Source: Antedon bifida
Taxonomy: Eukaryota > Echinodermata > Crinoidea > Comatulida > Antedonidae
Direction: 5' to 3'
Assembly (NCBI GenBank): GCA_963402885.1
Contig: OY727095.1
Coordinates: forward strand, 4,655,001-4,719,000
Length of the DNA stretch: 64,000 bases
The translations under genes were made by a program, and so were the position numbers. The notes under the pieces are model-generated. The model did not search any database and was not told the origin of the DNA. It was given only the letters and a program-made list of their open reading frames with translations. Shown piece by piece: positions 880 through 60,400 of this stretch (the first letter of the stretch is position 1; the number at the start of each line of letters is the position of its first letter).

Positions 880-3800
880 CTAGTTATCGATGTCTACGAC
901 GTCACATGGTATTTCAAGTTCATCTGCAACTGATTTTAATGAGTCAATCATTGTATCTTCAGCCGTTGGTGGTTTCATATTTTTTAAATTTTCTGCAATC
1001 TTTTCGATTTCATCAGCAGCTTTGTCAAGATTACCCTTATGTATATCAATTGATGTTGTGATGAGTGTGTGCATGTCGAATATAATGGCCACTCCAGCAA
1101 GGGCAATTCCAGCTATTTTAAGCGACATGCCAGCTACCCGAAATGTAGCTCCACCAATTTCATCAAGAGTTCTTCCAACTAAACAAATTGAAAACGTTAT
1201 ATTGAAAATGTCATATTTATCTAAGGTAAGGTATTTAGTATCGTCCTCAAGCTTAACTGGAAACTGAGGAAGTTCGGATTAGGCCCTCAAACGGACCCAT
1301 GGCACCAAGATCAACACACCAGGAGAAACGTACACTGTGCCTATGCGGGATCAACAGCTTTACGTCACATCCGAAGGACGAGGGTACAGTATGTATGCAA
1401 TAAAGATAAACATTTCTCGCATGTCTTTATGTGGATCTTACCTGTTGATGCCGTAAATCGCAGAACTCCAGTGACGGCCTTACCAGCATCAGATATTTCG
1501 ATTTTAGAACCAGATCTAAAGACTAGAGTAAAGTTAATATTCAAAATGTATGTATTTCTCAGAATCGTCTTGTTCCTGCTAAAGTGAAGACCATCTCATA
1601 TGATCACCGTGCATTATCTTATGCAGCTCCTATGCTTTGGAATTCTTTTCCAAACTGCATCAAAGATGGACAGTATGTGGCTCTTTTTAAGAGGCTTCTT
1701 AAGACATACTTGTTTATAAAAGCATATTAATCCCCTTTTTTCTCCTTTTCCATGCCACCTAGATTGTTTTAGATCTAGTTTAAGTAGGGCAGGAGGCGCC
1801 TGAATCCGGGATGACCGAGACAAAACTGGTGCAATTAGACCAATCCCTGGTTAGCGACGAGGGCGTATCCCCTTACTTCGGTTTGGGTTTTTTTTTTGCA
1901 TGGTTGGAATACCTTTTATCGTATTAGTTTATGTACAGCGCTTAGAGGTTTCACAACATTAGGCGCTATATTAATCCAGGATAATAATATTATTATTATT
2001 TATGTTAGGCCTAATTCTATCGACTAGCAAAAAGGAAAAGCAGATTACTTGGCTTCTCTTATTAACATGACATTGTCATTTTCGCTTGATAATTAACGAT
2101 AAAATTTTGTATTACCTTTAACAATGTCGTTTTTAATGGTACCAATAAATTGCGTGCTGATCTTGTTTCCGATAACTGAAACGTTTTTATATTGAAAAGT
2201 AATTATGATTAATACATAATATTTTATCATTTTTGAAGGATCATTTTTGTAAAATAAGGTCCATTGATAGCAGCAGTACGGGGATGAGAACATCTTCTGT
2301 CATACGGCCCTTGTAATTAATTGTTAAAGTAGGGTGTGATAGTAAAGACCAAGAAAACGGTGTTATTCATAGAGTGAGTCTAAGTTATTAATGATAATAA
2401 TTAGAAGAATACAATTCATTAATCTCGATAACCATTCACGATATTATAATTACTTACTTATAATAATTCTGATGGAATCTTCAACTTTTTCAAAAACGAT
2501 ACGAACTTTATCAATCATTTGTGCAAACTTCATGTGAACTCTCAGATCATCCTGGTATTTCTTACGAACTTCTTGCAGATTAGCAAACGTGACGTTACAC
2601 TCGTTTATCAATTTATCAGCTTCTTTGGCTCCTCGGCTTGAAAATAATTCAGCTGCAATTGAGGAACCAATTACCGTAACTCCACCTGCACCCGCAATGG
2701 TACCTCCAGCTATCATTATTGGTGATGCAACTCCAAAAGTTGCGATTGATAAGCCCAATCCAACAATACCCAAAATTGTACCACCCACCGACACTACAGC
2801 ACCAGCTACTTTTGTCTTATTCGATCGCTTTCTGTGATTTCTGACTTCTATGGCAACCACCTGTAGTTGTTGTACCAATCTGTCGCGAGCCATCTTCCAT
2901 TTTGTTGATGCCTCTTCAAGTGCGCGTTGTCGGTCGCCATCCTCGTTCTCTTGTAAGCTTTCTAGGTACGACGCTATAGGCTTGTTGATTTCTGAATCTG
3001 TATCCCTGAATAAAACTGTAATTACCGGGATAGCAGGAATAACAAGCTTCATATTTCCAAACATCATTCTGAATAATAATATGAAAAGAATATTACATCC
3101 GAGATCAACCGCTTCACAATAGCTCCTAGAATGTTTGTAAACTTATATCAATTGATGAAGAGGGGATCAGTACATCATATATGATGTACTTGTAACATGC
3201 TATCATTTTTGTACGAATGAATTTAACTTTTAAGCGTGGTGACGCAAAGTGCTGTATTGCGTAATCACAAGTGGGAACCGAAAGCAGTACTGCCAACATC
3301 GCAGGTTTGATTTCACGCAGGCGGGGGAAAACACAATTGGAAGGGCATGTTCTTACGTTGCGTTACGATGCGTCGCTAGTGGGAACCAAGCTTTCGGTTG
3401 TTGCGCTGTACGTTGTGTCGACCGCATAAAATTAATTGTGTAATTTGTGTAGTTTATATCAGCACTAGGAAGTTCAGAATCATTTGATTTAATAAACCCT
3501 CTGTTTTGCATGGACCCTACTCTTTATCGATTTTATTTGAGTGCCTGGTGACTTTAGTTAGATACGTCTGGACTTTCTCAGAAAGTCATACTTATTTGGC
3601 AACATTATGGGAGGTGCATATACATATATTATCAGTTAATTAATTTAAAACTTAAATTAAAATTAAAAACAGCCTGGGAAATTTCTAGGATTTTTATCAG
3701 ATAATCTATATTTTTTGACAACTCTTGACCACAGTGCTGATTTTGCCATCTTCCCCAAAACTGTTAATCCACACACTGGTTAAATAATGTTAGTAAAATG

Positions 3801-6636: not shown

Positions 6637-23712
<17,076 letters not shown>

Positions 23713-30921: not shown

Positions 30922-32340
30922 ATACGAATACGAATACGAATACGAATAGAACTTTATTGCAATCAAACGAAAGATTGAAGTTTAACAAAAGCGTTTCACT
31001 CAGAAAAATAAAATGCAATATACAAATATAAAAGACATTCAGAAATGTAGAACATACAATCAAAAAATTAAAACAAAATTACAATTAAAAATCACTTATT
31101 ATAAAAACAATAAATATAAAATACAAATTGTTAAAGACATAGGCCTGCAGGATAAAAATTTAAAAGTATTAAAAATGTTTACAAATTTAAAAAATGTTTA
31201 AAACTTCAAAAATGTTCAATAATATTTACACACAAAGGTACGGAAAGTCGCGGAAACATAACACAAAATGTTTACCATTTTTGGAATAATCCGTGATTAA
31301 TAATAAACGTTTTTGAACGGTTAGTTTTAACTCTAGGGATACAGAACTCACGGAGTCTTCTAAGATTATAAGCAGCAGAAGGAGCCTCCGGTAACAAATG
31401 ATTCAATCTGTGACTGGGGTCTTTGATTTTAACAAAAAAATCCTTGCACAGTCGAACACGGCGGTCTTCTAAGGTAGAAAAACCAAGGAAGCTGCGGGCA
31501 TCGGAATAAGTAGCATGCGGAAAAATACATTTAAAGGCCCTTCTCTGAATTTGTTCAAGTTGTTGATTCTGTTGCTTCGTAATATTTGATCCCCAAACTG
31601 GGGCCGCATATTCTAATATAGGTCTAATGATACTAGTATAAAATTGGACAAGTGCGGGGGCATCCAGGCCTGCCCTCCGCACCTGTTTGAGAAAGTACAT
31701 TCTAGAATTACATTTACTAATCATTTGATCAATATGAGGTTGCCATGACAAATTATGAGAAATAATTACACCAAGAAGTTTAAATTCGTCAACACGTTCC
31801 AGATTACAATCTCCAACATGGAGTGGCTCAAAAGCAGTCTTTGACCTTTTACAACTAATTCTCATCTCTTTCGTTTTCTTAATATTAAGGTACATATTGT
31901 TATCCTTAGCCCACTGGACAGTTTCGTCAAGAGTGGTTTGAAGTACAGTTGCCCCATCGTTGCCGACGCGTTCATGGATGGAGGTGTCGTCCATGTATTT
32001 CATGCACGGCACCCCATCCAGAAGATCGTCGACAAAGATGATAAACAACATGGGCCCCAACCAGGATCCTTGGGGGATACCACCCTTAACGACTGTCCAA
32101 GGGGACAATTCATCGCCTAGTTTAACACGTTGTTTTCTATCACATAGAAAAGCATAGATCCAAGAGATTAGATGGTCTTCGACCCCTAAATTATACAACT
32201 TATCAATTAATATATTATGGTCAATTAAATCATAAGCCTTTTTGAAATCAAGCAATAATAATCTCATTTCATCTCCTTGGTCAGTAGCATTAAAGCATTC
32301 GGTTAACAAATGTATAAGAGCGTCAGTGGTAGACACACCC
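30922..32340 (-). mobile_element. 5'-truncated LINE with intact RT frame (CR1/L2-like)
   Basis: The minus-strand frame from about 32340 to 31272 (about 354 codons) starts inside the reverse transcriptase at KGVSTTDALIHLL. It then shows LLLLDFKKAYDLIDHN, GIPQGSWLGPMLFIIFVDDL and the catalytic box YMDDTSIHE. The C-terminal parts are AAPVWGS and YNLRRLREFCIPRVKTNRSK. There are no stops or frameshifts, so the insertion is young. A 3' UTR of about 350 bp follows, ending in a six-base ATTCGT microsatellite tail (30924-30948 on the plus strand). Upstream domains (endonuclease) are absent: classic 5' truncation. The Met in place of Ala in the YADD box still fits the active-site pattern. The exact clade needs a phylogeny. 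Confidence 0.85.
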
Positions 32341-32799
32341 TTAGAGCAACCAAAATATACAATGATGCAAGAATTCTTTGCACACTGAAATTCAATGAAT
32401 TCTGTCCATTACATGCATATGTATGATTGGAAAATAAAGCCAAGCAAGGACAAGGTACAGTACCTCATCCTATGAAATTAACCCACTTAAAACCATCCAC
32501 ACAAGAAAATAAGATCAAGTCAAAGTGACATATGGCCTAGAATCTGGCCTAGTCTTTGGCCCTCCCCTAGTGTATATCGGCAAAGATACTGTACTACACT
32601 ATCTTTGATATCGGCTATTCATTCTGGTTGCCAGGTTTTACAGGTTATGTAATGGCAATTAGTTCATTGCATGCCAGGAAAGACAAATAGTTGTGCAATT
32701 CAGATTACACAATGTAGCATATTGTCAAACTCACTTTGTGTAAGTGACTGTATTTTAACATTCTCCAGGTGGTGTAATAACAGACCAAATACTAATAAT

Positions 32800-35700: not shown

Positions 35701-37559
35701 GTTGAAAATATCCATTTATAGAATCTTGGTAATGTGCAGAATTTAAATCTATGAATAAGACTGCAAGATACCAATTGAAATGTTCCTTTTTGGGGCTATC
35801 AGAGTTTTTAATTTTGCTACTCTTAACTTAAAGTGTGTATATTAATTATTTTATTTTTTATATGCATGTGTAACTCTGATCAAACTGCTAAACAACAAAA
35901 ATACCATGTCTATTTTCTTATAGTTATCATCTCATCAAGATAATGAAACTGGAGACTGCCCCCGTTCCCAAAGCAACAACTGTGTCTTTGCACAATTTGG
36001 TTGTAACACCAAAGTAAGTAATTAAAAGTAAATTATAACATTACAAAATGCACTGAGGCTGAATCACTACACTAATGGTTATTCATTTTATTCAGCACCT
36101 ATAAATATAATTTGAACTATCGTTTGATTTTTAGTTGAGTTTGTACACAGCTGAAAAACATTTGCAAGATAACGTTCGTGAGCATCTAACCCTACTTTGC
36201 CGGGCCTTTCTACCTTTCTTCAAAGATCACAACAAAACAGATTTCGATACAAAAGTAAAACAGCAAGATAACATTTATTTGGGAAAACAAGAAGGCAAAT
36301 CTGTAGACTCTTGTGATGGACAACAAGCAGGTGCCGCTACAAGATCTGAATTGGAGGATGAGCTGAAGCAGCTTGCATCGGAAAACCTGTTAGCAACACC
36401 GGCACAATTGAAATCGCCTGAAGTACGGCAGCTTATTTCCAATCTTGTAAAGGAATTCATGGAAGCTCACTTGCAGAGTGGTTTTCGACCTCAAGTAAGT
36501 GAGGATGCGAATTATGAGAAGGCTGCAGAGAGTCTGGCAAAGATTGGAGATAGCTTAAATGCAGCATTTACTGCTAGTCATGGAGAAGATGAAGATATTA
36601 TCATCAAAGAAAAAGAGTTGAACAAGTTTTCAGAGGTTGCAGATGAACTTGCAAAGATTGGAGATAACATAGGTGCAACTGCTACTCCTGTAGAATCTCT
36701 TGCTACTGAAGTAGGTCACATGAATATTCGGATCAAAGGTAAGAAGACAAAGAGTCCTGAAGAGGTTGGAAAAGAGCTTGTAAAAATTGGAGATGCCATA
36801 GTTGCAGATAAAGAGGATATTAGTCTTAAAGATATGGTAGCCAAACAAGGAAAACAAATCAAGAAAATAGAGAAAGATTTGCGGATCTTGGACAGAAACG
36901 GAAAAACATACCAGGATGCTATGCAGGTACTTAGTGACCAATCAGAAGAGATTGGAAAACAAATTAATAAGATTAATGAAAGGTTGAAAGTTTTAGAAGA
37001 ATTTAAGAGCAGCATGACATCGTTACCAACGCAGTTAGCTGTTTTGCAAAACACCATTTTAGAAATGAAGGAGGAGATAACTGAGAATGCAAACGCCACC
37101 CATAATGGAATCATAATCTGGAAAATTTCTGATTATGGAAAAAAGAGAAGAGAAGCAATGCAGCAGGGGTCATCTATTTATTCACCAGTGTTCTACTCTG
37201 GTCCACACGGTTATAAGATGTGCTGCCGCTTGTTTCTGAATGGTGATGGAGTCGGCAAAGGCTCGCACTTTTCCATTTTCTTTATGTTGTTGCGTGGTAA
37301 GTATGACGCTACTCTGCCGTGGCCTTTCAAACACATTGTTAAGTTCATGTTAATCGACCAGAATAACTTTGAGCACATCATGGATGGTTTCAAACCGGAA
37401 CCAAACAGTACGTCGTTCCAGAGACCAAAATCTGAACGTAATATCCCGACAGGATGCCCACTGTTTATTACACCAAACGAAGTAGAAAAGAGCAGAAATG
37501 CTTACATAAAAGAAGACACTATGTTTATTAGAGTGAGTGTTGAGTTAAAGCAGCAATAG
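32800..37559 (+). CDS. TRAF2: TRAF family adaptor, TRAF2-like (seven coding exons)
   Basis: Exons 32800-32945, 33512-33587, 34288-34386, 35017-35181, 35548-35622, 35924-36013, 36135-37559 (2076 nt, 691 aa). A C3HC4 RING uses Cys20, 23, 35, His37, Cys40, 43, 56 and 59. TRAF zinc fingers cover about residues 85-230 (CSWKGVFGNYEAH, CPYRPFYCKRC, CQYCGKKLF, CVFAQFGCNTK). A long coiled-coil linker follows, then a MATH/TRAF-C domain at about 541-691 (IIIWKISDYGKKRREA, GYKMCCRLFLNGDGVGKG, DQNNFEHIMDGFKP). The MATH domain is closest in my memory to TRAF2, but an ancestral TRAF1/2/3/5 gene is possible. In vertebrates these are cytoplasmic ubiquitin ligases/adaptors downstream of TNF receptors. Odd points: the linker carries three copies of an L-x-KIGD motif (about 350, 388, 431), and the donor after exon 2 is weak (GAT/GTGATT). 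The last exon is very large. Confidence 0.92.
33132..33295. mobile_element. MITE with TACTGCAGTAAC ends (copy 2)
   Basis: TACTGCAGTAAC palindromes at 33136 and 33158, and GTTACTGCAGTAGAAT near 33273. The inner GGCAGTCACTTCAATAAACA is shared with 25325-25510. It lies in TRAF intron 1. Confidence 0.65.
33767..34090. mobile_element. MITE with TTAAAGATGTATTGTCCCC ends (copy 2)
   Basis: Same inverted ends and inner landmarks (CTGCCAGCCAATAGGTTTTT, TACGGAAG) as 19074-19366. It lies wholly within TRAF intron 2, between the two halves of the RING/zinc-finger coding region. Confidence 0.85.
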
Positions 37560-37572
37560 AAATGTTTTGGTG

Positions 37573-37684
37573 TGTCTAGAAAACTAAGATCTAAAAAACT
37601 AAGACCTAAGATATCTTAGTTTTCTAGATCTAGAAAACTAAGATATCTTAGGTCTTAGTTTTCTAGATCTTAGTTTTCTAGACA
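37573..37684. repeat. 112-bp near-perfect palindrome in the TRAF 3' UTR
   Basis: The sequence reads as its own reverse complement about a centre at 37628/37629, with 55 of 56 base pairs matching; the one mismatch is A at 37594 against its partner. It is built from repeated CTAAGATATCTTAG and TTTTCTAGATCTAG words. It begins 13 bp after the TRAF stop codon, so it should be in the mRNA, where it would fold into a 56-bp hairpin with almost no loop. Confidence 0.95.
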
Positions 37685-39300
37685 TCCAATGTTTTAGTCT
37701 CTATTTTCAAGACAAAATGGAAATCATTATAAAAAAATAAAATATATTCAGAATTATAAGAACGTATTTAAACTAAGTTTTTTTTGTGATTTATTTTTAC
37801 ACTTAATATCACCCAAAAAAAACTCTATTAAGCTGTTGGAGTTTCTTTTAAGATTATACTAGAAGATAATTGTAATTTCCTTTTATTTATCGTTTCAAAA
37901 GTCTTATATTAGTCTAATATTGACACGGCCTTGGATAGAAACATTCTGGTCTTATTCTATCTAAAAATATATTTTTTAAACTTTTTTTATGCGATCGTAA
38001 GCCAGTGGTCTAAACCAATCCTCTTGTAGGAGTAAATTTGAGGCCCTTGTGCCACTCATTAATAATAATAATAACTGGTACTTGATATAGCGCATTATGC
38101 TGAAAGCCTCAATGCGCTTTCACTGCTAAATGAGTAAATTTGACATGCACTGGGATTTATAAATGAGCTGACGAGTTGTTTTGTTTTTTGTGGCGGAGAT
38201 AAGAAAAAAGGTCTTACTACAGCACACTTGCCGCATGACTCACAAATATGAATACTCAGTGCATGTTGAAGTAACAAACCCAAAAAACTGCCTCTTAACA
38301 GGATGACAGGTAAAATAAGATTGTACATACATTCAAAGACAATCTTGGGCTGGTCATTTTTCAAGAAGTTTCAGAATGCATTTTTAAAAGTAGGAAAGAA
38401 CTTTGGGTTTCTGAAAGATTTACTATTCATTCAAAATGTATGACATACATAAGACATATTAATGGATTTGTATAAATTGCATCTAACAAATATTAAGTAG
38501 AATAAGTAACTGTGCTAGAGTGGTGGATTGTACAAGAAAATAAGAAAAAAAATTAATAAAAACAGCTAGCTGTTGTTTTGTCTGCTTTTTATTCTTATTC
38601 TTGTATAACCACCAACAACTCACCAGCCAGACTATAGTCAAGTAAACTTGTACAGTATATAATAATGTTTAAAAAACTATTAACCATTCAAAGTGATTTT
38701 TGTCTTGTATATCGAACATTAATAGTACAGTATACATTTCTATATTATATACTGTACTACATATATACTGTATATTGTAAATTATTACTGGTGTAGTGTC
38801 CTCCTTCCTCATTTTGAGGTTCTGGTTCGATTGTGGATTTAATCAAATTCCTTGAATTGTGCATCCGAGTACTGCTATCTAATAGTAGAGCAGATATATT
38901 AGTTTAAAAGTATTGTTGTTTAATGGTATTGTACTTTCCCTCCTTATCTCAAGGCCCTGGTTCAACCTGTATAGTCATCATATATTAGGCAATTTCATTG
39001 GAAATAAGTGTTCAGTAATATAGTACTAAGCTACCTCATATTGAGGCTTAGTTTAAATAAGTATAGTTTTGAAAGTATATGTAGTTAGTGTAGTTAGTTA
39101 CCTTGCCTAAAATAATACTGTATATACACGCATATAGCACTTTTCTTGTGTTGATAATTGTATTGTTTAATATTTGTTAATGTTATTGCATTCAGTAGTG
39201 CACCTAATTAATTTATGTATGATTGCTTTAAATAAATATTTTTTTTTTAATAAAAGAAAATGAATTACTTTAACATTGTGGGTGTCGAATCTGTATACAT
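37685..39300. other. TRAF 3' UTR/intergenic region
   Basis: AATAAAATA near 37737 could be a polyadenylation signal. At about 38060-38160 a LINE/SINE-like tail lies in reverse sense (ATAATAATAATAACTGGTAC, then ATAGCGCATTATGCTG and CAATGCGCTTTC). The rest is AT-rich with scattered TACTGTA words. No exon seen. Confidence 0.45.
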
Positions 39301-45444: not shown

Positions 45445-48400
45445 ATGGCTAACACACAGCAACCCTGTAAGGTGATTCAAAGTGGTAAAGTGTACAGACA
45501 GATATTTGATGCAGAGGTAAGAGGGTGCCTTGCCCGAAATATAAAATGGATCATTGTTTTGTAAAACTATTGTTGTACTGTTTTCTAATTATCACATACA
45601 CAGTATTCATATTTTTTACCATATTATTGTAAAGTATACTGTACCTACTACGACATATAATTGGCACACACAGGTATATAGTTACATAATAAAATATATG
45701 TAATGGTAATAACAAAGAAAAAGTTATTTTCATATAATTTAGATAATACTATAAATTATCTTATTCATAGGTTCAACTTGTGCAAGCTTTAGAGAAATCA
45801 AAAGCAAATCCTAAAAAAGTTATCCCTAAACAAAATGGCATCCCACTTGTTAAAGAAAATAGGAAGGAGATGGGTGAAAGGTCATTGAATAAACGTCAAG
45901 TGCTGTGGATTGAAGGTAACCCAAATGACGACAAGTCAGAGAATCCTGTATTGTATAGGTAGGTTTGGGTCAAAGTTCAAGGTCAGGAGGATGGTTTTGT
46001 AAGAGTAAATAATATCCTAAACTAGTGTATAATACCAATAGTGTTTTATTAATTTACATTTTTTATTGAAGGCAAACGGTTTTGAAATCAATAGAAACAT
46101 CGGTTGAGCCAGAACATATAACGGCAGCCAGAGATGTCAGAGGTCTAAGTGATATAATCAGTAAGAATTTAAATATCTTTGACATAAAACTAATACCTAA
46201 AGCTCTGTGTACACTATCAAACTTGATGTGACAAAAAATGTAATGTGGCCATATATGGACATGATGATATATATCACTACCATATTTGGGCATATCGCTA
46301 CCATATTTGGGCATATCGCTACCATATTTGGGAATATCGCTACCATATTTGGGCATATTGCTACCATATTTGGGCATATCGCTACCATATTTGGGCATAT
46401 CACACTTTTGTTTGTCAAACTAGTCTGATAGTTTAGACAGAGCTAGCCTGTTTCAGTGTATCACATTTTTAAGGTATCCATGAGCAACCATAACTGGTTT
46501 ATAGTTTTAGTTTATTTATGAAAGTTAAAGACTTTGGTATGCTTTGGTTGGTACCTAGTGGATACATCCACAATGCATAAATTGCATGCATGTAAATATT
46601 GCCATACATTTTACTTTTTAATACGTTTCATTCTTGATGAGTTTGTACAATAAATTGTAAATTTTATATGATGAGCCACAGAATAATGCTTTATAAAATA
46701 CATTTTATTTTGTTCAATTCAACTTTATTTAACCATGGAGGCCCAGATCAACACATGGCTGTTCTTCCCTGGAGCTGTGTGCACATACAACAAAATACAA
46801 ATACAATTTATTTGGACTGCTAGCTAGATTGTGTAAAAACTTACAGACTTTTTTGTATGTAAATTTATATTATAGGCAAAGAGCAATCTGGGTCTGACAT
46901 AATAGACAGAATCAGTGAAAGCAGACGACAAAGACACGAAGAAGCTGTGGAAGATCTGCAGCGGGAACTGTCAATCATTGCTAAGGTAATTAAAGGCCTG
47001 TCCAGACCAGTTATAGTTTTATACATGTTTACACAGCATACAACTCAAGTCTGAATGCGAAGTTCACGGTTTTGTTTTACCCTCATTAAACACAGTTTAA
47101 CAAGAAATAAATATAAACTATACCCAGCTGGACAACATCCTGGTATTTTTCCATCCAGTGGCGTAATCGGCATAACGCACAGGACAAATGCCCCTGGTTT
47201 AGCACTCCTAAGGGGCTCTCCAACGCTGGCTAGTTGCATTGGAATTCTCATGCTCTGGGGTCCCTTGAGCTCTGGGACCCCTGGGTTTAGCCAGTGAGCG
47301 CTCCCGTTACATCACTGTTTCCATCATGATGGGTGTAGGCACCATTTCATGTACAATCATTATTTATAAATGCTAATATGTTATTTATCTGTCTTTATAT
47401 TTCATTTGACAGGAGTTTGAACCTCATATTACTGCTTCTGGAAAACAATTACTTTCTAATATGCAAGACAATGATAAAGGTACAATAATAATTTATATTA
47501 TGTATTTAGCTACTTGATATATGAAGCTGTAATTTTGTAATTACATTTTCATAATTATAATGTAGTCTGGGTAAATTACTATAGTATCAGGTTATTAGAA
47601 ATGTTCTTTTTTCCAAAACAAACCAACAATTAGTATGTAAAACTAACCTTGACAGTTTCGCTGTCCTGATTGAACAGCTTCTTCATATGCAAATTTCCTA
47701 GATAGAGATTGGAACATGTGATGAACATGTTGCCCTGAACTCTCCTAAGGGTACTGTACAAATTAAGAAATTTATTAACCTTTACAAATTGGATCCTTGA
47801 CACCAACAAACATATATTTAGATTTACTTATCTTAGGAAGCAATTGCCAAGATACAACATCATTTTTTTTTTTCAGTTATTGAACAGTTCCTGTCTAAAA
47901 TACAAGATGACATGGTAAAATATCTGTTTTATTTTCACTTTTTAAGCAATAAACTCACATTGTTTATTATTTCGTATTTGTATTAATGTGTACATAGACT
48001 TTTGTTGGTATTTTTGTACAATTTTAGAGACATAAAATTGGTTTAGAAAGAATGTCACACCTCTCAACTCTCCCGTGTTGTTGATACCAATCTTTTTAAT
48101 AGTGCCCTCTATGGTTTGGGGTATTTTTCAAAATGTTATAGCACCCTCTATAGTTTGGACATGCTTTCATAAGTGACTTGATATTTCATTTTTTCAATTT
48201 GAAGTTCTGTAATTATATTTGCTGTTGGTCTCTAACTAAATCTATCTAATTGTTTTTTTAAAAAGGCAGTAAAGACACTTGGGTTTACTTATGCATATAA
48301 TATCACTGTAATAAACAACTCACAAAGTAGCCACAGTAAACCTCACTGGAAAATGTTTTATTTGCAGGAATTGCGAGGTTACACATTACAAGGATTGATA

Positions 48401-51400
48401 GAATTGTGGAATGACATAGCTAAGCAGTCTGAATATCGTAGAAATTGGATAATAGAATTAGATAAACAGTTTCATAGCTATGAAGGCCAACGGATGCAAA
48501 AGGTAATTGAATCGTAACAGGGAATGCACAAAGTTAGTAGTCCTCAGTCAAAAATTGATGCATTGAAACTGGATCAGTTATAGGAACCTGTTTAGTGTTA
48601 ATTGACCTAGTAAATGACCTGTTTTTAACCGGGTGAAATCAACTGATTCTGCTACGGTAGAGAAATGCCTTTTCTGGGACAATTAGCACATTATGAATAT
48701 TTTTCTACTTTATTTCTTGTTTTATTTGTGTAGATAAAAGAAGTCCTAAAGGCATATGCCAAGTTTCTTGAACAGATAGCTCACCTAATGCCACCAGATG
48801 TGAGCCGGTACATAGAAAAAGAGTCGCAGATCGTCAACCAAACTTTAATTCATAATAGACGCTCATATAGTAACCTGTATGTCCGCTTGATGAAAGCAGA
48901 CATTGAGCGTGAGAAAGACCTACATTATGTTTGGGAAGGCCGAGTGGAAGACTGGAGGCAACTAAACACTGAAGTAGCTATCAAATCCTTTCAGTATGTC
49001 CTTCACTGGTTAAAGCCATGTCTACACTATCAAACTTTATGTGACAAAAAAATGTGATGTGCCTGATGTGCCCATATATGGACATGATGATGTCATATCA
49101 CTACCATATTTAAGCATAGCACTACCACATTTGGGCACATCACACTTTTTTTGTCAAACTAGTTTGATAGTGTAGACAGAGCTTTAGTCTGCATCAAGTT
49201 GAAATTATTAGTACAGTAATGCATATAATTATTTTGTTTCTATCCAGTTTATATGTCAATTTACAGTTTTTACCACGAAGATATTTAATGATAATATTGT
49301 TATATTTTAGAAATTTTATGAACAGCAATGACATCACCAAGCCACCTAAAGTTGATGAGTTTATACAACAGCTGAGAGAAGAGCAAGATGAACTGAATAC
49401 AAAAAGACTTAAGCTAATCCAGTCACTTAGGTACCTACATTACTAGTATATTTCCTAACAATTTTGAATCAGTGCAATGCTCAAGCATAAGGCTTCACTT
49501 AGAGCTTAAGCCACCTGGCACAGCATTAGGCACTACACAGGCTAAAGCTACATTCACACTTGTTCTGGTTCATGGAACAGAATACGGCGCTGTTCAATTT
49601 GTTACATGATTTTCAATTATTTAACTAATGTGAATGTGACTAATAACTCACATTCTTGCATCATAATCCTAGGTTCTCCATTTAAGTTTCTCCTCTGCAA
49701 ATAATGTATTCATTTTCTTGTTGCCCTCTCCTCCTCTTCACCCACCTTCTGTTTTAAACTGTGTTTGTCAATTAGCTTTCATATCAATTATATTCAGGGA
49801 AATGAAGCCGCCAAGCTCTACAAAAGCTGCAGTTTACCAATGGAATAATGAAATTGGTTCAATCAACAAACAAATTGAACAAGTCCATGTTGCATATCTT
49901 GATAAGATGCATGAAGAATATGAACGGATTTGTCAAGATTGTCTTGCGGAGATGGAGAAGCACAAGGTGCGTATCATTTGTGTGGAGCTGTAGCTTGGTG
50001 GTTAAGATGCTTGGCTACTGATCCCAGGGTTCTCGGTTCAAATCCTGTCAGATGGAAACACAGTCTTTTAGCCATAGGATTTCAGTTACCTTTTATGCCA
50101 ATGTGGACTTGACAATGAATTTACTTTTTCCACATTTACAGAGTTCTTTGATGGAAGCTGGAGTGTGCTCGGAGGACAGAGTCTTGTCGGTCATTGAAGA
50201 GAACTTTCTTCCACTTATTGGCGAAAGACAGAAAGTCTTTGAAGAAATTCTTCAAACCATGGATGTAAGTCAATAAATCATTCATTTCGTAAAGAGACAC
50301 AAACTAATAGAGGCATGTACAGTACTGTATATGCCATTGTTAACAGGTAGAGGATCATAGAGCAGACCCGAGGCAGACTAAGTGACCCTCCAACACTGGA
50401 GACCTCTGACATTTCTAGCCCTTTTCAAAAATTTGTAATGCCTGTTTTCTACCTCTGGACCCTGCTCAAACTCCAAGGCTTCTGAGTCAGTCAGTCAGCA
50501 CTCATAGCTGATGCACCAGTCAGAGAGCTTTTGTGTTAGTACATCATTGCTTTCTACACATAGATTTAGGTTTATGGCTTTGAAATATTTTTGTTTTGTT
50601 TGTTTAAAAAAAAGTACATCATGTATATATTGATTGTCCAATCATTCTTGCTGTAATAATAATTTTTGTAGAAAATCAGTTGCATAAAGATTGTTTAAAC
50701 CTAATTTGGTTTTTCTCTAGAAATCTTTGGAGAATCTGTCAGTAGCTTATGCAAGTCAGCTACACAGTCTGTTCAAGTATGCTCAAGGTGCGGGACATCT
50801 ATGGGATGTTCACGAGATTGGCCTTGCAAAGCAAGAAAGAAAACTTCAAGAAATGTTAGAGGCCTGTCGTCATGAACATGACAATCTAAATCAGGTTAGT
50901 TCCTACTAATGCAAATTGTGTTAGAAATAATGTTCAGTGGATAGGCAAATTGCCAAGGATAATAACCATAAGTGAATTAATTCACTATCCTTCTTAAAGG
51001 TGGAAATTCTGTTCACAAGACAAACATACACAAGATGCTCTACATAAACAAAGTATTTGGGAGTGGAGTTATAAATTGTCATTAGAAAAAAATCCTGGCA
51101 CTGACAGGACTTGAACCCAACTTGTAGCCAATTATCCACCACCAAGCCACAACTCCACTCTATATACTGTACAATATTGCTACCTATTAGCTTTTTTCCT
51201 CAAAGCACACTTTATACTAAATACTTATGTCTCTCTCTCACTGTGTATAGATGCTATCATATGCTTGGACTAGACTAGTGTCCCATGTCCTAGAATATTT
51301 TATCACATTTTTCCTTGTTAACATTACAGGATATGGAAGCAAATCTAGATATCGTAATGGACAGGATGAGACAAGAAGCCACAGAAGACGAACTTAAGGA

Positions 51401-54400
51401 TAAACTGTCTAAAGCTATGCTAGCACTGGACAACATTAAAAGCAGGTAAGAAGATGGTTTATTTCATTGATTGATTTTATTGATTAACCAGAATCACACA
51501 AATACATACAATATAAATATTTACATTGTAAACATCTGACCAATTACTCAACACCCTGATGCAAAGCTACTCCACAGGAGTTACAAACAATACAAAAATC
51601 AGTACAACAGTAAGACTCGAGTTAAATGGAAATCCCCAAAAAAGTAAAATACTTATTAATTCAATTGGGGTCCAGAACACGGTAAAACAAACTGCACATT
51701 TCCACAGTTATTCTATGTTATTGCATGTGTTTTGAAATTACTTATTTTTGTTATAGTTGATTCATGACTAATTTTGAGAATACAACCTTAAAATACCTCT
51801 TGATCCACGGATTGTCCAAGTATCAAAAACATCAAGTATCGGACTGTAGCTTCAATGACTGGTTTTTTTGGGCAACTCAATTTTGTTTGCAACCTCACTT
51901 TATGATTCTATATTATTTGCAGTTATGATACATTCCATGAGCAACAGTTCAGCATTGTCAAACAATACCCAGGCATGGTACAAGATGAGTTGAAGCGTTA
52001 TGACAAATCCGTCTGCAAGTTTTTCGAAGTGGACAGACTTCATCCAACTGTAAGTCTAAAGCTCTGTCTAGTTTGACAAAAAAAAGTGTGATGTGCCCAA
52101 ATATGGTAGTGATATTCCTAAATATGGTAGTGATATGACATCATCATGTCCATATATGGTCACATCACATTTTTTGTCACATAAAATGCTGACTGATAGC
52201 CGAGAATAGCAACATGGCATCTATTTTGAAATTTGTCTATGTAAATAATTTGTTTTTAGGAAAGGAAACTAGAGAGTGCTGAACAGAGTAAGCTAAGAAA
52301 ACAACAAAGGTCTAGCTCTCGTAACCAAGCTACACCAAGTCCAGCCGACAGCAGAGGGCAATCCAAAATTGGGGTTAGTTCTCTTTCTCATACATTTAAT
52401 ATGATTTCTCTGAAATAAACACGTCTTTGGTCCTTAAAGAATACAAAAAAAACATGTTTTGTTTAACAGGTAAATAAATAAATAAATAAATAAGCTGATT
52501 TAATTGGATATTTTTAAAATATAGAAAAGTAGATATAATTTTAAAAGTATGAATTCCTATAATAAATATAATACAGACACAGATTATCAAAACATACAAC
52601 CTTGACTTGAGGTTTCAATATGTGTTTATGTCAGACATTGTTACCTGAATACAAAAACAAATGGAAGAAAATAATGAAGAGGGTAAGATAAAGAGAAAAG
52701 TTATAGACATTTTGTTTCTTTATTTTTTCACAATTTATATTACATTGTTTTTTCTTTTACTATTATAATATTTTTTAAATTTGATTTATCTTTTAATTGT
52801 TATTTATTTCACCGTTATTGTTTTGTTTATTTTAAGCTGTTAATACTATTGTGTGTTATTCAAGTTTTTTTATTAATTTGTTTTAATTTTACTTGTTTTA
52901 CTAACTTATTAAATCAGTTAACCAATGCCAATCAGTTGTTTTTTATATTTACATTGTGGTAACTGAACTATCAGATTGGTAGAGTGGGCTATTTATTTAT
53001 CTCGGAAGACTTCACCACCAGCTGATATCTTTGGCTTTTTAATAACGGTAACATTCAAATTTTCCTTCCAAAGATTGATTGCGAATTGTGTTCTATTTAC
53101 AGACTGTATCGGTAATTTCTCGAGACTCTGTAGTAGGTAAAGAGGGAGGTACCTCTTCCTACCCTGCCCAACTTGGTGTCAAAGAGGTACTTTCCTCGAA
53201 GCAAGGAACAACATTTTACGTTCTCACATCTGCTGAAGATGCTGCTCAACAAACAGATGAAGATATATTAGATTTGCCATCATTAGAGAAGTCTCCAGCT
53301 TCAAGTTATCTGCTTCCTGTGGTGGAGAAGGTTCTTATTGACCAGGAGTTGTTCCAGCACGTCAGAAGAGAGTAAGTTCTCAATTACATTCATTATTTTG
53401 GAATTAAAGTTCACCAAAAATCAAGCAATAATGAAATTACAGTTTCTAAAGAATCCAAGGTTTCAGGTTGCTATCTGAACAAAACTTAACAAAAACAAAT
53501 GAAATTATTTATTATTTCACAGAATGAGAATGGCTTTTATTGACAATCTTGAGGAATGGTCTGTCCAAGCTGTTGAACGGGCTAGCAGTGTAGTTGCTGC
53601 TAAGGTACGATTTCTTTTGTTTTGTTTTCATACTATAAACTTCTGGAACTGCTTTAGATCTTTGTCAGTGATTGGAACATATTTTGAATAGAGAACTAAT
53701 CTGTATCGTCATAGATTCTATGATTAGTTTTGCAATGCTCTGTGTGAAAAGGAATACAATAAATTTGCTTTCTTTTGTTACTAAAGATTGAGGAGTTAAA
53801 CAGTGAACTTGACTTACGATTACATTTACATGGCCCTCGTTGTCGGCGTGCAGAGCTTGACATCCACAACGTGAGAGCAGCAGAGTTGGTGATGCATCAG
53901 GAGCGTGTCAGCCGTCATTCCAGAGGTATTACCTCTGCTTTGAAAGACTGTAAAGATCGTTTCATTAATATGCAACTTGAACATGACAAGTTGGCGGACA
54001 ATTTCAGAGAGGAGATTGATTCTTTGGAATCAATTTTTGTCAATGCCACAAAATCTTCCATGTAAGTACTGAAAGTGAATTTATAAAACCAGCACACTCC
54101 TTGGGCTTTCCTAACATTTCCAGTCTTTCTGGTTGACAATATGCAAATTGTGAGACCTTCAGGACGTCTGTTGAAGTTTTTAGGTGCATGGTAGGAGAGT
54201 GTTGACTAACAGCATATCAAACTAATTTGAACAAAAAAAACACATCAAATTGATTTAAGTGCTTACTTCTTATTTACAGGTTGTCGGTTTTGTCAACTCA
54301 AGTTAGCACAAAACTTGACAGCTACATGCAAGTGATCCGGGCTTCCTTACGCAAGTTCCGCCAGTACTTGGACGACACTTTGCAAATGTTACGTGAATCA

Positions 54401-57400
54401 AATGCCAGGTTCATTATGTCTTTCAAGTAAGTATGTAATGTCATTGTCCCACCAATGTCATTGTAATGTCATTGTCCCACCAATGCCAATGTAATGTTAT
54501 TGTCCCACCAATGCCAATGTAATGTTATTGTCCCACCAATGTCATTGTTATGTCATTGTCCCACCAATGTCATTGTATTGTCATTGTCCCACCAATGTCA
54601 TTGTAATGTCGTTGCCCCACCAATGTCATTGTAATGTCATTGTCCCACAAATGCCATTGTAATGTCATTGTCCCACCAATGTCATTGTCCCGCTATTGTT
54701 ATTGTAATGTCATTGTCTCACCAATGTTATTATAATGTCATTATCCCGCTATTGTTAATGTAATGTCATTGTCCCACCAATGTCATTGTCTCATCAATGT
54801 CCCACTAATGTTATTGTAATGTCATTGTCCCATCAATGTCATTGTAATGTTATTGTCCCACTAATGTTATTTATCATTTTCTGCTAATGTTTTTGTCAAT
54901 AAACATTTAATTTCTTGATGTTTTACATACTACATGAATTAATGCGATCAAATGTTTTTGTTTGTTAGATTGTTTTCTGATGGAGGCAACTTCTGTCCGG
55001 AAGAGACTGATGGTTACAAGAAGCGGTTGGAAAAACTAGCCACCAAAATTGATTCATCTGAAGGGTTTGTCATGGCAGACCTTGAAGGGATGGAATCCAG
55101 ACGTCTACAGCAAGCTTCAGAGATTGCTACCAAGTTTGAAGACAGGTAGCCTTCAAACTATTCGTTTTATTTCTAAGCGCTTTAGATAATCTGGACTGAA
55201 ACCCCCAGTTCTGTTTACATGCCTACAAACATATTACTAAAATGAAATTAGATTTTTCTAAAATATAAACATTTAAATGATAATTTTGATCAGGTAGCCT
55301 ATTTGTCATTTATTTAAGACCAACCAAGGACAATCTTATATCTCCATTTTGTGTAATACTAAGTATGGGAGTCTATCTTGTAAATAATGTACGTTTGTGG
55401 ATGTCTATATAATTATGTTTTCTCTAAATACATTTTCATGGCCCATTGTTTAAATTACCTATTAATTGTTTTGCTTACAAACATTGGTGTTTACTAGAAT
55501 ATAATTTCTTCTGAAATATAAACATGTTCAATTAGTGTGTTCAATTTGAACACCTTAATATTTCATCCTCTAAAATAACCTAATAATGAAGCCTTTTAAA
55601 CAATTTCAGATTTAAGCATCACTTATTTGACCTGACGTTTATTGAAAAACTCACCCGTTGGTTAACCAACACCCAAGTAAAGATCAAAGCAGAGGTAGCT
55701 GACAGCAATTCACAAGCTCAGAAGATCCTGAACTTTCTGAACACTATCGAAAGACGGGTAGATGCGTGTCAGAAGCCAAACTTAGACAAAGAGGTAAGAC
55801 CTGCCATAATTTTGAAAGTTATTTTTTTACAAGTTTTTCCTATTAAAGTTTATGTAGACAGCACAGCACATATTAATACTAACCTTTTATACATATACTT
55901 GGTATTTGCTCATCCAGAACGCAACCGGACCCAACGTTGGTTAACTTCGGTGATCTGACGAGAACAGGTGTTTCAACACAGTAGAACAGTTTGTTGAAGT
56001 TTAGTATTGTTTATCATGTGATAAGAATTTTTTGAGTAAACAGCTTGCAATTAAACAATTTTCATATTCCAGAAAATAAGAAAGCCAAACATAATTATAT
56101 CATTTCTCTACTAAGGGTGTCGCACATGAGCCTTGAAAAAGTATCTTCACTTTGAAAAGCTAGAACACTGTTCACCATGTTATTTAGGAAAAAAGAAATG
56201 TTTTAAATATTTATATAGCACCCTCTATCATACGGATAGTAGAAACCGTTTAATCGTTACACAGAATCAACATTATATACCGGAGCACCCTCTATTGCTG
56301 GATAGCTGCTGCAGTGAATGTTCAGAAATATCATTCATAATAATAATAATAATAATAACATTCAGTGGCAGTATTTACAAATTAACAAACCAAAAACGAC
56401 TATCCACAGATATACTTAAACTTGTCAGTTACAAAATTAATTAAGTAGTGAAGTCAACAAAGATAATCACTTTAGCATAAACAAAATATTGTTGACTAAA
56501 CTCTAATAATGGTTTAGATTAATTTGTAGATTATTTTATGGAGGAAATAGGGATAAATTACACCCATCAGACTGTAAAATGATACAGCATATACTCCCCT
56601 AGGCCCTGCAACTAAACACCCATGAGCCTAAGGCATGAAACTGGTTAGTCTGTGTTGCTCCAGGGAGCGTACTCAAGATTGATAGAGAAATGTGACGGCT
56701 TCATATATCATCACAGATACTGTTCAACAACATTAGTACCATTTAATTTGTTTTTACTCTGGTACATAATTTCATGAAAGATTATTTTGATATTTTCAAT
56801 TTAGTTAATCTAGGAAGTTAAATTGATTCATTTAGAAATTGTCTGATATGATGTCCTTGAAACTAACATTCTAAATATCAAGTTTCTTTTAAAGCATATT
56901 ATTATTGTCTATGAGTTTTGGATTTTGTTTGGAAATGTTAAGTGAATTTTACTATTTAGGCCTATTTGTAGTTTCCATCATTGAAATCAAGATCATCATT
57001 GTCAATCCTTGACCTTTAATTGTCAACTTTAGTTTGTCATTGTTATTGTCACCAACATCATTGTCACCATCATTAGATCATTAGGGAGCTTTCGATTTGC
57101 GACAACCATCGACGAACCTAGTTCAGGTCAATCGGTCGGTTGTTGTCTGGACCTAGAAACCTGTGTCGAGATGAGGAGTGAGGACACATGTTCCAATATC
57201 TGCATGCCCACAATGAATTAACATTGTCACTATCAATGTCATCAACATTACCATGCCAACATTGTCACTATCAATGTCATCAACAGCACAATGCCAACAT
57301 TGTCACTATCAATGTCATCAACGCTACACCATGCCAACATTGTCACTATCAATGTCATCAACACTACACCATGCCAACATTGTCACCATCAATGTCACCA

Positions 57401-60400
57401 ACAGCACCATGTCAACATTGCCACTATCAATGTCACCAACAGCACCATGCCAGCATTGTCACCATCAATGTCACCAACAGCACCATGCCAGCATTGTTAC
57501 CATCAATATAACCAACAACACCATGCCAACATTGTCACTATCAATGTCATCAACACTACACCATGCCAACATTGTCACCATCAATGTCACCAACAGCACC
57601 ATGCCAACATTGTCACCATCAATGTCACCAACAGCACCATGCCAGCATTGTTACCATCAATATCACCAACAACACCATGCCAACATTGTCACCATCAATG
57701 TCATCAACATCACCATGCCAACATTGTCACTATCAATGCCGCCAACATTGTCACCATCAATACCATGCCAACATTGTCACTATCAATGTCATCAACACTA
57801 CACCATGCCAACATTGTCACCATCAATGTCACCAACAGCACCATGCCAGCATTGCCACTATCAATGTCACCAACAGCACCATGCCAACATTGTCACTATC
57901 AATGTCATCAACACTACACCATGCCAGCATTGTCACCAACAGCACCATGCCAGCATTGCCACTATCAATGTCATCAACAGCACCATGCCAGCATTGTCAC
58001 CATCAATGTCACCAACAGCACCATGCCAACATTGTCACCATCAATGTCACCAACAGCACCATGTCAACATTGTCACTATCAATGTCATCAACATCATGGC
58101 AACTTTGTCACCATCAATGTCAGTAAAATCATCACCACACCATAATTGTCACCATCAATGTCAGCAAAATCATCACCACACCATAATTGTCACATTGTCA
58201 CCAACATAACCATCAGTGTCACCATAATCATCATCAGCTATCCATCAGTATGATTCTCATTATCAGTAGCCTGTTTTTATTGTTTTTGGACTTTCCATTT
58301 ATTAATAATATCCTTTAAATGTCAGATTATCTAACATTACAATAGCTTGCTTATATGCATAGTATGTGATTCACATGGGAATCGCTGTAATTTACTGCAA
58401 CATACAACAATAACCTTCTACGTTAATCCTAAAAAAGGATTGCAATTTATTTTAAAAGCATAGTAAATGAATTTTATATACAAATGGGTATTTTATGCCT
58501 TTTTAAATGCTATAACTACTTTAACATTTATTATTAGTTAATGTTTTTTAAAAATAAATATTAATAAATATAAAGCATATTATTATGGTTTGAATTGCTT
58601 GTAGAACTACAATTAACTAGAAAAAGTTTCATTGCTACTTTTTTTCTGTTTCCATCTCATCTTATTGTTTTTACCACTCAACATCATCATCATTATTGTC
58701 ATATGTCATTCATAATCATCAATCATAATAGTTTATCCTCTGCACCACTAATTTTTATTATTATAGTATCTATATTTCATCATCTGAACATGTCATCATT
58801 CAATATACAAATAATAAATGTTTATAAATGCAATGGTTCAAATAATTTGATGAGGTGAAAGATGAAATTTCTAAGTCTGTGAGAAAATAGAACAGACAAT
58901 GCTGCTATTGGTTTTTTAAGCAGATATTTTTTTATACGAGAAAAGAGTTTTTTTCGTACACAAAAAATAGGAAAAATAATATAAAATAGTACCTACTATT
59001 GAACACCATGTGAACCACAATTGTCCAATCAAATGACAGAAATTTATTGTGTTATATTGTACCATCTACAATGATTGTTATCGACCTCATCATCCATTAT
59101 AATTTTCATTATATATTTCATCATACTGTATGATCAATATCATTTATCATGATTGTTATCATCATCAGATTCAAATTCAAATTATATTATCATTATCTGT
59201 TATCATTTTCATCATCTCTTGTACCTCTTTCTATCATGGTACTGTAGTTATCACCACTTTGCAAACATCCTTATATCAAGAATCATCTACCTCATCAATC
59301 AATATCAGTATCATCTTTAATTATTTTTACCACCACAATACAACATTGTTATCTTCTTTATTATCTTTTTATCTATTTTCTTTCCTATTAAATCATCTCT
59401 ATCAACGACATGATTGTCACGTTTAATAAAATACAAAATTATAAACATTAAATTGATATTGATAATAAATTTGTTTCTCGATTGATAAAAGTTACAAAAA
59501 CTCCTTTGGGATGACATATATACAAAATTTATTCAATTTACTGTCCTCCTTGATGGAGTGTTTGGCGCCATGTCCTGCATAATTGTATTAACGACATAAA
59601 AACTATGAAATTACTAATACATAATTTAAATTAATTAATAAGAGAGAATATTCAGTTCTATGGACACAAATAGCTAGCTGTAATTCCCGAATCAATTTGA
59701 CATCACTTATAAAATATTAACTTAAAAAAATATCATTACCATTAACATAATAACTATATTTCAGAATGCATATTTTATTGTTTCATTCCAAATCGATTCT
59801 CTATTTTTGGCTTTCCCAGTTTCATTTGTCTAAATTGAAAAGTAACATTTACATTTGAGAACTCTGAAAAATCATCTTAAATGCACAAATACATTTTAAC
59901 AATGTTCAAACCATCACATATGCACCGTGAAATCATGTTTTCTCTAATCATGTGTAATGTGTTTTTTGCTAGTAAATGTGAAAAAAGAAAGTGATTAAAC
60001 GAACGAAGTAGTAATTTGATTTTTACTATGCACTACTTCTATTTGAAAAAAAACTCAATGTAACGGGTGATTCAGGCAAAGTTTGTCCTTATAGACATGA
60101 AACCAAATCATGGCTGTCTGTCTCAAACCAGGATTCTCTTGCAGGGTTGTATTTACGTGAGAACATACATTAATGAGCCATTCATTATTCAATTGTAAAG
60201 TAGGTTACTATGATTTACCTTTATAGAAAGTAACCCAATTGTTATTTGGACTTCATTTTGATATCTATGACTTAAGCTCATAGTCAGGATTTTTACAGAG
60301 GGTTCTTTTTCCGCAAAAAAGGGAAGTGCAGACATGAACTACTGAAGAAGGAAAAAAAGATTGAGTCCTAGCCTATTAGATGAAAGTAATTTGCCTGCTA

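Follow-up and report, generated by a model that had tools for sequence, protein, structure and literature searches.

A near-perfect palindrome shortly after a TRAF-like coding frame

The window, the whole 64,000-nucleotide stretch of Antedon bifida DNA analysed here, corresponds to C8:4655001-4719000 of the genome searched (G000; 315.6 Mb in 27 contigs). It contains an open frame whose predicted product carries a MATH domain (Pfam TRAF-mep_MATH, E 1.3e-40; MATH_2, E 6.6e-34). Of the upstream zinc-finger stretches, one gives no match and the other a weak zf-TRAF match (E 0.0032), below the cut-off. Because the zinc-finger support is weak, the label TRAF-like rests on the MATH domain, and as a gene label it is safe on these domain matches. 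The features of the locus are as follows.

36135..37559, plus strand: open frame with MATH domain, TRAF-like gene
37557-37559: stop codon TAG of the TRAF-like frame
37561..37569, plus strand: left copy of the target-site duplication (TSD), 9 bp, AATGTTTTG
37570..37687, no strand: complete non-autonomous foldback/MITE-like element, 118 bp, its termini aligned with those of other copies; left terminus GTGTGTCTAG (family form GGGTGTCTAG), right terminus CTAGACATCC (family form CTAGACACCC)
37570..37628, plus strand: left terminal inverted repeat (TIR), 59 bp, TCTAGAAAACTAAGA-type modules in both orientations
37606-37619 and 37638-37651: nested palindrome CTAAGATATCTTAG
37614..37643 (G000:C8:4692614-4692643), no strand: central perfect palindrome, 30 bp, TCTTAGTTTTCTAGATCTAGAAAACTAAGA, putative deletion join
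37624-37633: nested palindrome CTAGATCTAG
37629..37687, minus strand: right TIR, 59 bp, abutting the left one with spacer 0; 56 of 59 pairs kept
37688..37696, plus strand: right copy of the TSD, 9 bp, AATGTTTTA, 8 of 9 bases the same as in the left copy
37736..37741, plus strand: first AATAAA 3' of the stop codon, a candidate signal by consensus only

The palindrome at 37573-37684 has 56-bp arms that abut without a spacer, and 55 of the 56 pairs are complementary, as the first-pass annotation had reported; the lone broken pair is A37594/C37663. The smaller nested palindromes that it had pointed out are present as well, CTAAGATATCTTAG twice and CTAGATCTAG once. When a match is scored +1 and a mismatch -2, the spacerless arms score 53, compared with top scores of 7-11 in 20 simulated 64-kb windows (first-order Markov, same dinucleotide make-up). 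The runner-up among separate palindromes within the window has an 8-base spacer and scores 13. The symmetry is genuine and far beyond chance. The originally described extent of 112 bp is accurate for the pairing of the arms, but the biological unit is longer, 118 bp at 37570-37687. Terminator-like scans of the window chiefly re-detected the palindrome, and promoter-like sites occurred at chance level.

The palindrome belongs to a dispersed family with modular ends

The family terminus GGGTGTCTAGAAAACTNAGA occurs in the genome at 481 sites with at most two mismatches, compared with 4 sites for the reversed control; these sites are end-like, and some copies contribute several. Exact 25-mer family ends occur 24 times, compared with 0 in the control. 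A 161-base query around the palindrome found 328 candidate places, and the 40 that were scored gave 138 matches on many contigs, a number that counts palindromic copies on both strands. We fetched 35 stretches around candidate places and read their ends. The copies read have in common the termini GGGTGTCTAGAAAACTAAGATCTAG... and ...CTAGATCTTAGTTTTCTAGACACCC, the exceptions being shortened or diverged at one end. The family comprises two main sequence variants, one with CTAAGA modules, to which the window copy belongs, and one with CTCAGA modules; the latter is the majority among the 100 terminus sites listed of the 481. Its short forms are free of coding sequence and range from 51 to 1290 bp across the 21 copies measured, with 118 bp in the window.

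A 15-bp module, TCTAGAAAACTAAGA, and its complement make up the ends of the family in varying number. Many copies contain arrays of whole terminal units, with terminus-to-terminus spacings of 53-164 bp, and spacings of 53, 68, 94 and 107 bp recur at more than one locus. The family thus has the long TIRs of foldback elements, in which short subrepeats stand in tandem and vary in number. Longer relatives are also present. Specifically, L073 is a 555-bp copy with the ends of the family, a non-coding interior and a TSD matching at 8 of 9 positions, and elements of 700-900 bp align with one another at mostly ~70-90% identity in the alignments obtained for 3 of 21 queries. The interior of the family is repeated as well, since 205 bp taken from where the L019 interior begins match the genome 41 times.

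At G000:C7:8892081-9010590, seven element copies are spaced at 18.8-21.0 kb, seemingly as part of an array of large duplicated units; the array copies read are of the 118-bp form (L009, L042) or of a longer form (L010, L041, L043). The DNA on the two sides of the 51-bp family copy L054 (G000:C7:18951182-18951432) forms an inverted repeat over 33 bp per side, and that around L061 (G000:C8:26117095-26117485) does so over 11 bp. On occasion, the family may bring about an inverted duplication of its target. Copies L013, L016 and L083 are close to long tandem C2H2 zinc-finger arrays, with an 84-bp period in L083 and some open for more than 500 aa.

A 9-bp target-site duplication is the signature of the family

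The 118-bp element in the window is bordered by two 9-bp direct copies with one mismatch between them. Of 60 left/right end pairs tested in the family, 20 agreed at 7 or more of the 9 flanking bases. From the fetched loci, we then took one outer end pair per copy for 31 copies picked by the analyst, a sample that includes the flank-sharing loci L058/L060 and L048/L049 and excludes L076, a duplicate of L036. The 9-bp duplication is perfect in 12 of the 31, matches at 8 or more positions in 16 and at 7 or more in 19. Because L058 and L060 have common flanks, at most 11 of the 12 perfect duplications are independent. In a control with swapped flanks, at least 7 of 9 bases matched in 7 of 930 combinations and at least 8 of 9 in 2 of 930; both of the latter combine L058 with L060, two loci with identical flanks. 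Perfect duplications of 6, 7, 8, 10, 11 and 12 bp were found in 0, 0, 0, 1, 0 and 0 of the 31 copies, respectively. The counts, the swap control and the other lengths together identify the 9-bp duplication as the family signature.

The remaining 12 of the 31 delimited copies have no 9-bp TSD matching at 7 or more positions; they include L009 (the other 118-bp form), L017 and L061. Two of these 12 carry a 10-bp duplication instead, perfect in L045 and matching at 9 of 10 positions in L065. The TRAF exon, taken as far as 37569, matched nothing but itself in the genome; because this exon is single-copy, there is no paralogous empty site for comparison. Before insertion, the site would have contained a single AATGTTTT(A/G).

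The window palindrome has dispersed inverted termini, a TSD of fixed length, a short size and no coding sequence, the properties of a MITE-sized cut-and-paste element. It is a copy of a DNA-transposon family that is scattered through the genome, and most likely an ordinary insertion just behind the TRAF-like gene. We put at about 0.95 the probability that a non-autonomous, MITE-sized foldback-type cut-and-paste element inserted behind the TRAF-like stop codon and duplicated 9 bp there.

The spacerless form matches the predicted product of a proposed deletion between palindromic modules

The central 30 bp of the window element, TCTTAGTTTTCTAGATCTAGAAAACTAAGA, is its own reverse complement and is also the innermost 30 bp of the 74-bp end in longer relatives. 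At no more than one mismatch, this core occurs at 41 genome places, compared with 0 for the reversed control. In an element with the palindromic 30 bp at both ends, its two copies would be inverted and direct repeats at the same time. Two 74-bp ends joined at one 30-bp core make a perfectly palindromic sequence of 74 + 74 - 30 = 118 bp. Only positions 37571, 37594 and 37685 set the window copy apart from this fused product. L009, which lies at another locus on C7 and is present four times in the duplicated array, also has three differences from the fused product, at other positions. The exact 74-bp end forms the right ends of L019 and L022, and L023 and L025 carry it on the left with one mismatch; among the copies compared, no long element has the exact 74-bp end at both sides.

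By this comparison, the window copy matches the fused 118-bp product, and we infer that a deletion event lies behind the 118-bp form. A longer element would have lost its interior by deletion between its two copies of the 30-bp module; the join could come from slipped pairing, from single-strand annealing or from an excision site that was repaired imperfectly. Because the inner modules are palindromic, such a deletion would necessarily leave a spacerless palindrome. A transposase supplied in trans from another locus, most likely one of the Mutator superfamily, would then have mobilised the shortened form, which would have inserted directly behind the TRAF-like stop codon, duplicating the 9-bp target. 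The three mismatches of the window copy would represent ordinary decay, and the long hairpin predicted in the transcript would be a by-product of the insertion. The 118-bp copies may go back to a single deletion, to two deletions or to template switching. The scheme possibly offers a general account of spacerless near-perfect palindromes: where a foldback TIR has a palindromic inner module, one deletion between two such ends would yield a perfect palindrome with both termini still present.

Symmetry, decay and the predicted RNA hairpin

The element begins 10 bases after the stop codon and ends 48 bases before the first AATAAA. As it lies between the two, its hairpin is probably part of the mRNA, within the 3' UTR of the TRAF-like gene. 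The RNA of 37557-37760 has a predicted fold of -90.5 kcal/mol, compared with -32.5 +/- 3.7 in 200 shuffles (z = -15.6). An RNA duplex in the transcript had been suggested for this palindrome, and the prediction agrees in that a very stable hairpin precedes the first AATAAA. The window has no Rfam match at the gathering score. Effects of the hairpin at the RNA level are possible on the folding model. It is improbable that the insertion has been co-opted and that its ~60-bp RNA hairpin, following the TRAF-like stop codon, serves as a substrate or ligand of the dsRNA machinery; in that case, expression of a putative immune adaptor would be coupled to the load of viral dsRNA or to small RNAs that the family copies have in common. 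The stable 3' UTR hairpin of the TRAF-like gene is a natural place to seek side effects of an insertion.

The window copy has diverged from the inferred original by 3 substitutions in 118 bp (2.5%), plus one difference in the TSD. Each of its three changes breaks a DNA pair and none is compensated, and the same is true of the three changes in L009. As a result, symmetry is equal in the two copies, at 56 of 59 pairs each. The substitution at 37685 still permits a G-U pair in RNA. The three changes fit neutral decay of a once perfect palindrome, and this pattern does not indicate selection for pairing. The first-pass annotation had argued that such symmetry must be either very recent or maintained. 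Recent origin was one of the options it offered; maintenance is unsupported, because the three pair breaks are uncompensated and L009 is equally symmetric.

Three other explanations of the palindrome were weighed against insertion of a transposon copy. One is a functional 3' UTR hairpin, kept by selection as a substrate of Dicer, ADAR or a dsRNA sensor, that controls the TRAF transcript. The extreme stability of the predicted RNA duplex, its location ahead of the first AATAAA and the G-U pair kept by one of the three substitutions (37685) are in line with this idea, and palindromic MITEs have become microRNA genes, as Made1 did for hsa-mir-548 (according to the available part of PMC1784062). 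We nevertheless consider it improbable, because the sequence is a family repeat that is not confined to the TRAF-like gene, 3 of 3 changes break DNA pairs without compensation, and L009 is just as symmetric elsewhere. The transposon reading thus strikes one candidate regulatory hairpin from the list.

The two remaining explanations concern how the symmetry came about and are less probable still. The first-pass annotation had suggested growth of the palindrome in place by fold-back (snap-back) DNA synthesis, which would produce spacerless symmetry and nested palindromes; the 33-bp inverted flanks around the 51-bp element L054 suggest that inverted duplication may occur in the family. In the window, however, the symmetry ends at the family termini, the flanks are direct repeats of 9 bp rather than inverted ones, and both the termini and the arm sequence recur in copies across the genome, which makes local growth very improbable. 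An artefact of assembly or sequencing, which it had asked to be excluded, is the least credible of the three. Palindromes are difficult to assemble, but many copies of the family have flanks and a TSD of their own, and its longer forms are not full palindromes.

Superfamily assignment and search for a transposase

The family likely belongs to the Mutator superfamily, judging from TSD length and architecture. Its TSD agrees with the ~9 bp characteristic of Mutator elements, and a Mutator-superfamily transposase is proposed because of the 9-bp duplication together with the foldback architecture. No autonomous transposase was found inside family ends. The genome has 33 matches to PF10551 (MULE). 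The 4 of these inspected with 1.5-2.2 kb on each side have no family terminus, and all 33 are at least 19 kb away from the termini listed (24 exact sites; the first 100 of 481). Among open reading frames of at least 110 aa in L009-L077, inspection by eye revealed no transposase between family ends, L044 apart; the accompanying Pfam scan covered three L044 and two L074 frames only, a scope within which a diverged transposase could be missed. In L044 (G000:C1:20004842-20011654), facing ends 6.4 kb apart enclose a DDE_Tnp_4 transposase and a Myb/SANT gene. This candidate was rejected as the source because, by eye, a Harbinger-like element with its own ends, GGGGCGGATTGCAATA... and ...TATTGCAATCCGCCCC, is nested in a family copy and accounts for its enlarged size.

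Membership in the P superfamily, as a Galileo-like foldback element, is an unlikely alternative to Mutator, though less so than the explanations weighed above. It is suggested by one family end (G000:C12:20089616) that is 2.1 kb from a fragmented P/THAP9-like transposase, but a matching right end is absent up to C12:20106000, and the fragment was rejected as an unproven source. Moreover, 3 of the 42 genome matches to PF21789 belong to one local repeat at C12:20.09-20.12 Mb, and the other 39 are more than 150 kb from the listed termini (24; the first 100 of 481). P and Galileo elements have TSDs of 7-8 bp. In contrast, the TSD of the present family is 9 bp, and perfect 7- or 8-bp duplications, measured from the ends used for the 9-bp count, are found in 0 of 31 copies. 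At this C12 locus (L074 and L083, G000:C12:20089616-20093891), PF21789 matches recur every ~14.7 kb, at 20092348, 20107058 and 20121828.

Comparison with known foldback elements

The element behaves as a foldback MITE, and its family is a further one of an already known type: a foldback family of 481 end-like sites, at no more than 2 mismatches, is added to a 315-Mb genome. The TU foldback elements of sea urchin have long inverted repeats, the outer part of which consists of short tandem repeats, and a TSD of 8 bp. The likeness to TU is one of general architecture. The literature searched, of partial coverage and without a repeat database, contained no name for the family.

Judging from the available parts of the reports, the most similar elements among those found belong to the foldback group of the Mutator superfamily. 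The closest is Tm1, a Mutator/Foldback family of Meloidogyne root-knot nematodes, whose composite TIRs string together short motifs, typically of 14 bp, in varying numbers (PMC3169594). In that account, TSDs of 8-10 bp, mostly 9, accompany 45 of 53 complete Tm1 elements, and MITE-like short forms without transposase are the majority (PMC3169594). Like Tm1, the present family has composite modular TIRs (15-bp modules here, 14-bp motifs there), mostly 9-bp TSDs, many coding-free MITE-like forms, unrelated sequences nested within copies, and autonomous copies that are few or lacking (PMC3169594, as far as available). Unlike Tm1, it has modules in both orientations inside one end, creating palindromes within each end, and no transposase-bearing member was found here. 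The sequences differ as well: Tm1 has motif C, CGATTCAGTATC(C)GC, and terminal motifs A1/A2, in contrast to GGGTGTCTAG... here, and by eye the motifs A1, A2, B, C and D given in the available part of PMC3169594 show no likeness to the family termini. Foldback ends are described there as having arisen independently with different transposases (PMC3169594).

Tetris and DAIBAM of the Drosophila virilis group, as described in the available part of PMC4079207, likewise have modular foldback TIRs and TSDs of 8-10 bp, with no autonomous copy found; the tandem unit of their TIRs is ~220 bp, unlike the modules here, and the resemblance is one of description (PMC4079207). The same source names sea urchin among foldback hosts, citing Lieberman 1983 (PMC4079207). 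Human Made1, the source of hsa-mir-548, is a near-perfect palindromic MITE of 80 bp (37 + 6 + 37) with two TIRs almost back to back, like the window element (PMC1784062, part available). Unlike it, Made1 is related to Hsmar1 (mariner) and has a 6-bp middle and short TIRs (PMC1784062), whereas the window element has spacer 0 and 59-bp modular arms. By analogy, Made1 as presented in that part of the source may serve as a precedent for the RNA-hairpin idea.

Other features of the window

A second dispersed repeat occurs in the window at 9289-9440, 46198-46438, 49011-49157 and 52063-52185. One portion of it resembles TAAAGCTCTGTGTACACTATCAAACTT, its core is built from a 21-bp unit, TATCACTACCATATTTGGGCA, in varying copy number, and the repeat looks like a second MITE-like family. 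On the minus strand, an apolipoprotein L-like match (Pfam ApoL) is above the curated cut-off at 2450-3142 and below it at 880-1278, and a reverse transcriptase fragment (RVT_1) is located at 31272-32408. Two long minisatellites are present, at 54434-54871 (unit ~28 bp) and at 57217-58209 (unit ~38 bp), the latter open in three plus-strand frames of 204-330 aa.
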